From NCBI GenBank assembly GCA_001777575.1, contig MFEL01000007.1:1-42329 (forward strand): a DNA stretch of 42,329 nt, read 5' to 3'. Of this stretch, positions 144 to 42,329 are shown one piece after another. Both the position numbers and the translations under genes were made by a program. The DNA comes from Candidatus Doudnabacteria bacterium RIFCSPHIGHO2_01_FULL_46_24. Lineage in GTDB: Bacteria > Patescibacteriota > Doudnabacteria > UBA920 > O2-02-FULL-48-8. The notes under the pieces are model-generated. The model made no database searches and was not told where the DNA came from. It worked only from the letters and a program-made list of their open reading frames with translations. Positions within the stretch are counted from its first letter, which is position 1; each line of letters begins with the position of its first letter.

Positions 144-927
144 CAACTTACGGCTTCCTATGCGAGCAATCGCATAAGCAAAATCTAACTATATCGGTGA
201 ACTCCTAAAGTAACGTTTAGGACAATACCGAGGGAAGTTAGGCTAGAAGCGCGAGTATGTCTCAAACAAAACTTGGTAATCAGATTAAACGAGCGGCATT
301 AACGCCACAAGAAATTGAGGTTGTTATAGCTTGTTTGATCGGTGATGGCACAATTTGTAAGTCTGGCAACGGTAGATATTATCGACTCCGTATCGAGCAC
401 TCGGCTCGGCACAAAGAGTACGTTGAATGGAAGTACAATCTTTTGAAAAGATTATGTATTTCGCAAATTCAATATCTTCCATCCAACGATTCTTACAAAG
501 TAGGCACAGTAGGCCATCCAGAAATTACCACGTTAAGAAAAGTTTGGTATCCATCAGAAGTAAAACAAGTTGCTGCCAATTTCAGGCTAACGCCTTTGAT
601 GATAGCAATCTGGTTCATGGACGATGGCACTAAGCATCGAGACACTGTGGACATTTCAGTCCACAACTTCTCTGATGAAAGCATAGAGATCTTAAAGAAC
701 GAATTACTAAGATACGGCATTGAAACTACAGTTAATTCGGATTCAAAAGGTTCTCGGCTCTACATCATTAAGAGAATTTATCCGCTCTTTAAAGAACTTG
801 TTAAACCGTACATTGTAAAATGTATGGCATACAAGTTGCCCTAACCCCGTAGAGACTATACGTTAGCTCCAAGGAAACTTGGATGAAGATATAGTCCGGC
901 ACTCTTAGTAATAAGAGATTACAGTCG
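144..927 (+). mobile_element. Group I intron in 16S rRNA carrying a homing endonuclease ORF
   Basis: Exon joining GAAGT|CGTAACAAGG restores the conserved 16S sequence. P1 pairs GAAGU with GCUUC, with a U.G at the splice site. Intron ends in G. Core-like segments ATCGGTGAACTCC...GACAATACCGAGG and GAGACTATACG...GAAGATATAGTCC are present. Confidence 0.93.
257..844 (+). CDS. LAGLIDADG homing endonuclease, intron-encoded
   Basis: Two LAGLIDADG-like motifs: ACLIGDGTI and AIWFMDDGT; ORF lies inside the group I intron. Confidence 0.93.
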   Translation: MSQTKLGNQIKRAALTPQEIEVVIACLIGDGTICKSGNGRYYRLRIEHSARHKEYVEWKYNLLKRLCISQIQYLPSNDSYKVGTVGHPEITTLRKVWYPSEVKQVAANFRLTPLMIAIWFMDDGTKHRDTVDISVHNFSDESIEILKNELLRYGIETTVNSDSKGSRLYIIKRIYPLFKELVKPYIVKCMAYKLP

Positions 928-4926: not shown

Positions 4927-5003
4927 GGGCGCGTAGCTCAGGCGGTTATCCCAGTAGTAGATGCTTCACATCACTACGGGACAGGGAGCGCTACCCCGCA
5001 CCT
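4927..5003 (+). pseudogene. tRNA 5'-portion-like sequence with an inserted hairpin
   Basis: GGGCGCGTAGCTCAGGCGGTTA...GAGCGCTACC, with hairpin TCCCAGTAGTAGATG-CTTCA-CATCACTACGGGA inside the D-loop region. Confidence 0.45.
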
Positions 5004-5033
5004 GCTATAATTTATCAATTATTCCTTGCTGTT

Positions 5034-5110
5034 GGGCGACTAGCTCAGGTGGTTAGAGCGCGTCACTGATAATGACGAGGTCGATGGTTCGAGTCCATCG
5101 TCGCCCACCA
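5034..5110 (+). tRNA. tRNA-Ile(GAT), CCA encoded
   Basis: GGGCGAC...CGTCA-CTGATAA-TGACG...GATGG-TTCGAGT-CCATC-GTCGCCC-A-CCA; full cloverleaf. Confidence 0.97.
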
Positions 5111-5173
5111 GCAGGGCATAATTATAGGGCAGCGCGCCTGCCCCGTACCAAACGCGTAGCGTTTTGGTGCGGG

Positions 5174-5222
5174 GTCACTGATAATGACGAGGTCGATGGT
5201 TCGAGTCCATCGTCGCCCACCA
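5174..5222 (+). pseudogene. Duplicated 3' 49 nt of tRNA-Ile
   Basis: Perfect copy of 5062-5110. Confidence 0.9.
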
Positions 5223-5275: not shown

Positions 5276-5483
5276 ATGTGGTATTTTTACATAGCAAGGT
5301 GCATTGATAAAAGTTTATATTGCGGTATTAGCAGTAACACCTTGAACCGTATTATTCGCCATAATAATCGCCGAGGCGCAAAATGGTTTACGAAGCATGG
5401 AAGCACAAATCAAGCGTTGGTCGAGAATAAAAAAAGAAAAATTAATTAACGGAGAATACCCCTCGGCTCGACTGAAGGCTTAG
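5276..5483 (+). pseudogene. GIY-YIG nuclease-domain gene remnant
   Basis: 5276 frame MWYFYIARCIDKSLYCGISSNTLNRIIRHNNRRGAKWF, then +1 frame MEAQIKRWSRIKKEKLINGEYPSARLKA; central part missing. Confidence 0.78.
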
Positions 5484-5763: not shown

Positions 5764-5795
5764 GGGCCATTAGCATAGTGGTAGTGCACCCGGCC
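5764..5795 (+). pseudogene. tRNA 5'-half-like sequence
   Basis: GGGCCATTAGCATAGTGGTAGTGCACCCGGC: acceptor, D-arm and start of anticodon stem, then hairpin-rich sequence. Confidence 0.5.
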
Positions 5796-5833
5796 GCGCC
5801 CCGTAGTCAACCGTAGGTTGTACTATCGGGGTT

Positions 5834-5973
5834 TGCACCCCGTACTAAATTTTTGATATTTGTTTTGTTGGGCCGTTAGCTCATTTGGTAGAGCGCCACA
5901 TTTGCAATGTGGAGGTGACCGGTTCGAGCCCGGTACGGTCCACCAGGATAAGAATCAAAAATTAGTACGGGGC
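5834..5973. repeat. Inverted repeat flanking tRNA-Ala
   Basis: TGCACCCCGTACTAAATTTTTGAT (5834-5857) against ATCAAAAATTAGTACGGGGCA (5953-5973). Confidence 0.8.
5870..5945 (+). tRNA. tRNA-Ala(TGC), CCA encoded
   Basis: GGGCCGT...CCACA-TTTGCAA-TGTGG...ACCGG-TTCGAGC-CCGGT-ACGGTCC-A-CCA. Confidence 0.97.
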
Positions 5974-6014
5974 AAGTCCGGCGGGTGCGAGTTCGATTCT
6001 CGCACGGTCCACCA
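5971..6014 (+). pseudogene. tRNA 3'-half-like fragment, copy 1
   Basis: GCAAGTCCGGCGGGTGCGAGTTCGATTCTCGCACGGTCCACCA with intact T-arm. Confidence 0.6.
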
Positions 6015-6044
6015 GGATAAGTGATTTTCAAAAAATTAGTACGG

Positions 6045-6088
6045 GGCAAGTCCGGTGGGTGCGAGTTCGATTCTCCCATGCTCCACCA
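6045..6088 (+). pseudogene. tRNA 3'-half-like fragment, copy 2
   Basis: GGCAAGTCCGGTGGGTGCGAGTTCGATTCTCCCATGCTCCACCA; T-stem partly degraded. Confidence 0.6.
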
Positions 6089-6107
6089 GAATTCAGCATA
6101 GATTTGA

Positions 6108-40839: not shown

Positions 40840-41152
40840 GATTGCTTCCAGAGTTTATTGCTCCACCGAATAATCTGATATAGGCGGTTCTTAAAGCGAG
40901 CAGTGTATTGTGGAAGTAACCCCGACGGCCAGTCGGGGTAAACGGCTAGCAGCTTAACAATTTAGTTCAAAGTCATCTTTATAGTCCAGTGCTTCGCACT
41001 GTAAATTTTCAATGATCAAGTATCAATGATCAATTAATTTTCAAGAATCAATTTTCAATTGAAAATTGCGCGTAGCGCTGGAGAAACCAAGTCCTCGTCA
41101 TGTAAAACGGGGCAATAAGCAGTTAGTAACCACTAATTGCTAGTCAAAAAGA

Positions 41153-42329
<1,177 letters not shown>

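Follow-up and report, generated by a model that had tools for sequence, protein, structure and literature searches.

A group I intron with a LAGLIDADG_2 endonuclease gene after U1495 of the 16S rRNA gene in a CPR/Patescibacteria genome

Introduction

Three archaeal group IB4 introns (IB4.8, IB4.19, and IB4.26) have been described at SSU/1498, which was called a new site at the time (Nawrocki et al., 2018; PMC6125680). In CPR bacteria, group I introns with LAGLIDADG_2 or LAGLIDADG_3 proteins occupy a 16S site, 16IS10, at approximately "position 1498," where the LAGLIDADG_2 proteins form two distant clades (Tsurumaki et al., 2024; PMC11270868). Sites in that study were placed by alignment and were stated not to match splice borders exactly. 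The same work showed that I-ShaI, the endonuclease of a CPR 23S intron, cuts its own insertion site.

Here we analyze an intron near the start of a 42,329-nt stretch of DNA, referred to below as the window, which is contig C7 of an 847-kb genome in 18 contigs. Genome size, rRNA introns, and relatives together suggest a CPR/Patescibacteria lineage. The intron resembles those of 16IS10 in gene region, group I class, a LAGLIDADG_2 protein, and patchy distribution, with LAGLIDADG_3 proteins also present at 16IS10. Unlike the alignment-placed 16IS10 sites, its junction is resolved to U1495, three nucleotides upstream, and its guide is GCUUC rather than the GCGAC of introns at S1498. It shares with the archaeal SSU/1498 IB4 introns the group I class, nearly the same place in 16S, and the LAGLIDADG ORFs that serve as endonucleases of that set, but those introns have archaeal hosts and lie at 1498, whereas this one is bacterial and lies at 1495. 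Its protein is, like I-ShaI, a CPR rRNA-intron endonuclease; however, I-ShaI is a LAGLIDADG_1 homodimer, and the window protein is a LAGLIDADG_2 protein with a predicted single-chain, two-motif fold. An earlier sequence-only reading of the window had noted that rRNA introns were reported in CPR bacteria.

Results

The intron interrupts the only 16S gene detected in the genome

The left end of the window holds the 3' part of a 16S gene, whose 5' part, up to approximately position 947, lies on contig C2. Positions in 16S were numbered from an E. coli 16S gene, and all intron and exon features given below are on the plus strand. The partial 5' exon (1 to 143; RF00177, 105.7 bits; blastn to E. coli 16S) begins at approximately E. 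coli 1338 and terminates in GAAGU at U143, which corresponds to E. coli U1495. The 3' exon (928 to 974, E. coli 1496 to approximately 1542, by sequence and comparison with E. coli 16S) opens at C928, which corresponds to C1496, and contains the anti-Shine-Dalgarno sequence CCUCC. The insertion point falls in the 3' strand of helix 44, in the decoding region of the ribosome. RF00177, run against the remainder of the draft assembly, detected no 16S copy beyond the 5' part on C2. Because 16S sequence occurs only on C2 and C7, we conclude that there is one gene split over two contigs, a single-copy status that depends on a draft assembly in which this gene is broken. Separately, this 16S gene has a second group I intron match (L038/L072; C2:486-760; 49.1 bits, slightly below the cut-off), which falls between E. 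coli 439 and 517.

The 784-nt intron (144 to 927) has a complete group I anatomy

RF00028, junctions shared with other genomes, and covariation all place a group I intron of 784 nt, ending in omega-G927, at the coordinates given by the sequence-only reading (144 to 927, between E. coli 1495 and 1496), with exon GAAGU before it and CGUAACAAGG after it. The P1 with U.G and the omega-G of that reading are likewise present. In P1 (139 to 157), exon GAAGU (139-143) pairs with guide GCUUC (153-157), with U.G at the splice site, as judged from sequence and guide comparison. Between these strands, UUACG (148-152) forms a P10 strand by sequence, its partner being CGUAA (928-932) of the 3' exon; P10 has five contiguous pairs in the window and three in homologues.

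The structure model and the covariation alignment support a P2 hairpin with a GCAA tetraloop (159-176), P4 (194-198/227-231) and P5 (203-209/216-222) together spanning 194 to 231, and P6 (232-234/846-848) with P6a (237-242/840-845), the 5' strands of which occupy 232 to 242. The loop of P6a houses the ORF, and the last codons and stop of the endonuclease (GCCCUAA) form the P6a 3' strand, a stretch that the ORF-less relatives L043, L045, and L046 retain. The 5' strand of P3 (CUAAC, 185-189) pairs across P4-P6 with GUUAG (862-866), as supported by covariation across introns at S1495 and S1498. The 5' strand of P7 (852-858, from the structure model) comprises G852, paired with C897, a bulged A853, and GACUA (854-858), paired with UAGUC (892-896). 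J8/7 (UGAAGAUA) and the P7 3' strand UAGUCC (884-897) were placed by the RF00028 match and the structure alignment. The P3/P7 pseudoknot and a P7 of the guanosine-binding type were identified. Two-sided changes mark four of six pairs in the P8 hairpin (868-883, GAAA loop) and three of six in the P9 hairpin (902-917, GUAA loop).

Covariation supports the structure

The covariance-model search that the sequence-only reading had proposed gave a divided answer: a permissive search matched RF00028 (30.9 bits, E 7.5e-6), but the intron went undetected by Rfam at its gathering score of 50. The match covers only 712 to 918, with only the 3' half (P7-P9) properly aligned, and the low score results from its start inside the ORF, with the 5' half of the core lying upstream of that ORF. 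The gathering score is a detection threshold and not a defining property of group I introns. Moreover, of the eight distinct S1495 introns sampled, seven matched RF00028 with E values no higher than 5.8e-4, ORF-less ones included; the other S1495 introns, again including ORF-less forms, scored 29.7 to 47.2 bits, and a related S1498 intron (L062) scored 55.1.

A hand-drawn group I structure of 61 pairs was evaluated on seven aligned S1495 introns, comprising the window and six homologues, with a mean column identity of 85%. Standard pairing occurred in 96.7% of cells and fell to 33-46% in a control in which the partner was slid by one to three columns; two-sided changes occurred at 13 pairs, and none of 500 shuffles scored as high. 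This result, together with the junctions common to other genomes, excludes chance and assembly error. P1 and P7 are invariant across S1495 introns, which implies that they are conserved and contribute no covariation. For P3 and P4, we combined S1495 and S1498 introns into 13 distinct cores, in which 99.2% of cells were paired and the covariation score exceeded all 500 shuffles; counts of pairs and of pair types were not above shuffles. Four of the five P3 pairs showed two-sided changes in these cores (CUAAC/GUUAG, CCAAC/GUUGG, UUGGC/GCCAA, UCGGC/GCCGA, CCUGC/GCAGG, and others), and one relative (L041) has a single P3 mismatch. The sequence-only reading had named failure to find P3-P8 as what would count against an intron; these elements were found.

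The ORF encodes a predicted LAGLIDADG_2 homing endonuclease under purifying selection

The embedded LAGLIDADG ORF of the sequence-only reading (257 to 844, 195 aa) belongs to LAGLIDADG_2 (PF03161, E 5.8e-29) and has both motifs intact. The protein resembles I-SceI in sequence (phmmer, about E 3e-9 to 4e-9), and its predicted model (pLDDT 94) has an alpha-beta-beta pseudo-dimer fold, for which the best Foldseek matches were I-WcaI and I-SceI (6x1j and 1r7m; E 2e-15, TM 0.83 by query, near full length). Thus, it shares with these enzymes its sequence family, predicted fold, and two LAGLIDADG motifs in one chain; it differs from them in its putative target, bacterial 16S, and in sequence, with 24% identity in the structural alignment. 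The acidic motifs GD and MDDG are invariant among ORF-bearing S1495 members. Divergence among these four members is greatest at third codon positions, a pattern that indicates purifying selection on the endonuclease in each of them. The LHE tree places the S1495 endonucleases in a single clade (100/100), separate from S1498 and 23S endonucleases, with the three same-order sequences together and the different-order sequence outside. The two S1498 LAGLIDADG_2 proteins fall outside this clade in a tree that leaves the deep order unsettled.

S1495 introns are distinct from their neighbors at S1498

S1498 lies three nucleotides downstream of S1495. The guide is GCUUC in all eight S1495 introns and GCGAC in all 17 S1498 introns, and each matches its own exon; all 25 end in omega-G, and P1 with U.G at the 5' splice site accompanies it in 8/8 S1495 introns. 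Introns of the S1498 family are inserted after U1498 with a matching guide, whereas the window intron is inserted after U1495 with guide GCUUC. Splicing of the window intron at S1498 was considered and rejected, since GCUUC does not fit GUCGU. Of the S1498 introns examined, L054 has LAGLIDADG_2 in P6 and L050 has LAGLIDADG_3 in P8.

S1495 is patchily occupied in the phylum

At the protein level, a search of 288 genomes in the phylum recovered LAGLIDADG_2 relatives from many rRNA sites; those most similar (60-70% identity) lie exactly at S1495. A protein scan of genome contigs added one further S1495 member only (L033), identical to L040. By junction pattern, a census of 382 genomes of the same phylum found eight occupied at S1495, 17 occupied at S1498, and 157 with intact sequence; the others showed none of the three patterns (3' end missing, divergent, or otherwise altered). 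Seven genomes besides the window have identical exon/intron/exon junctions at S1495. Full-length ORFs are present in the window, L040, L041, and L044 and absent from L043, L045, and L046, and L039 is a form with other insertions. Within the family of the window, five of six other genomes sampled have the intact, empty sequence. This patchy occupancy and mixture of ORF-bearing and ORF-less forms fit gain, decay, and loss through putative homing. Near the S1495 group I intron of L045, on the same strand, there is also a match to a group II intron domain (RF01998, 39.3 bits; 2358-2445, minus).

Discussion

These results make it very probable that the element is a self-splicing, mobile group I intron located after U1495 in the sole 16S gene detected in this CPR/Patescibacteria genome. 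From its anatomy and relatives, we infer splicing, cleavage, and homing as follows. In the folded pre-16S RNA, GCUUC would keep GAAGU, the end of the 5' exon, in P1 through a pairing that includes the U.G wobble. P7 would bind an external guanosine, which would attack the phosphate after U143, and the freed 5' exon would then attack after omega-G927 while P10 aligns the 3' exon. Ligation would join GAAGU to CGUAACAAGG and give GAAGUCGUAACAAGG. The protein encoded in P6, a LAGLIDADG_2 member that is probably an I-SceI-like pseudo-symmetric monomer, would cut empty 16S genes at S1495, and repair of the cut gene would copy the intron in. Splicing would be required in principle because only one 16S gene was detected and the intron, if left in the RNA, would keep A1492/A1493 apart from h45 and the 3' end of h44.

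The strongest competitor, although we consider it unlikely, is an intron that is still spliced but has lost its mobility: the endonuclease would be a relic or serve solely as a maturase, and the distribution of the intron would reflect vertical descent plus losses. Vertical descent could also yield the grouping by order in the LHE tree, and loss of the ORF is common at S1495. Nevertheless, every ORF-bearing member keeps an intact ORF that has both motifs and is under purifying selection, and the empty, intact site in most genomes of the same family would demand repeated loss. It is far less probable that the element is an intervening sequence excised by RNases without ligation, which would leave a fragmented 16S. 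Sequences of this kind are known from bacterial 23S and probably also occur in CPR bacteria (PMC11270868), but the fold lacks a long flanking stem, and the group I core in the window is complete, its guide, P10, and omega-G falling precisely at the exon borders. An assembly artefact or 16S pseudogene, which the break of 16S over two contigs might suggest, can be dismissed for practical purposes, given the same junctions in seven other genomes, exons that are good rRNA with an intact anti-Shine-Dalgarno sequence, and no other 16S copy detected in the genome.

The self-splicing, mobile intron favored here belongs to a known kind of element, of which it is an ordinary but clean and well-formed example. 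When compared with known intron sites, as the sequence-only reading had proposed, its site class proved to be published at approximately 1498, and the exact S1495 junction was not found named. Likewise, an S1495 junction with its own guide and endonuclease clade was not found described in the literature searched, which included few subscription journals. The site class is therefore not new; the small advance is to resolve S1495 as a splice site of its own, with guide GCUUC. The 2024 study (PMC11270868) may have lumped S1495 into "1498," and S1495 and S1498 introns may correspond to its two distant LAGLIDADG_2 clades. A broader scenario is tentative, and we rate it at somewhat below even chances: S1495 would be a separate, undescribed site colonized a single time by one intron/endonuclease lineage, with the guide reset from or to that of S1498, two related families competing for overlapping decoding-region targets, and the last endonuclease codons doubling as P6a. 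What is gained is the assignment of an exact junction, guide, and endonuclease clade to one of two adjacent sites that may be merged when surveys rely on alignment, and S1495/S1498 provide a natural pair for testing a three-nucleotide change of target in group I introns.

The insertion also falls inside the 1492R primer site, as the sequence-only reading had noted. Primer 1492R mismatches the intron-bearing gene at seven positions, among them all four 3'-end bases, compared to three mismatches to the joined exons, all in the 5' half of the primer. Because the intron replaces all four 3'-terminal target bases, such genes are likely missed by standard full-length 16S PCR; nothing relevant to 1492R interruption by introns was found in the literature searched.

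Additional observations in the window and genome

The 16S (end at approximately 974) and 23S (start at 41152) genes of the window share a strand but are unlinked, with 40 kb separating them, and tRNA-Ile and tRNA-Ala are located between them. The intact tRNA-Ile (5034-5110) and tRNA-Ala (5870-5945) genes are flanked by tRNA half copies (4927-5222 and 5764-6092), which comprise an exact 49-nt 3' copy (5174-5222), two 3'-half copies (5991-6018 and 6065-6090), and 5'-half-like pieces (4927-4948 and 5764-5795), with inverted repeats (CCCCGTACTAAATTTTTGA) among them. A 57-aa ORF with a GIY-YIG domain (5276-5449; PF01541, E 1.9e-8) adjoins the duplicated tRNA-Ile half. On contig C9, a strong group I intron match in L080 (C9:23500-25300; match C9:24224-24516, minus, 67.7 bits) adjoins an apparent tRNA 3' half, and the upstream ORF is, by eye, putatively HNH endonuclease-like. 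The 23S 5' end in the window (41152-42329) contains several stretches that the Rfam model lacks, at approximately 41376-41430, 41475-41550, and from 41880 onward, and 23S sequence of the same genome on C9 (L079; C9:1-6000) contains group I matches at C9:247-501, 1180-1362, and 1831-2118.
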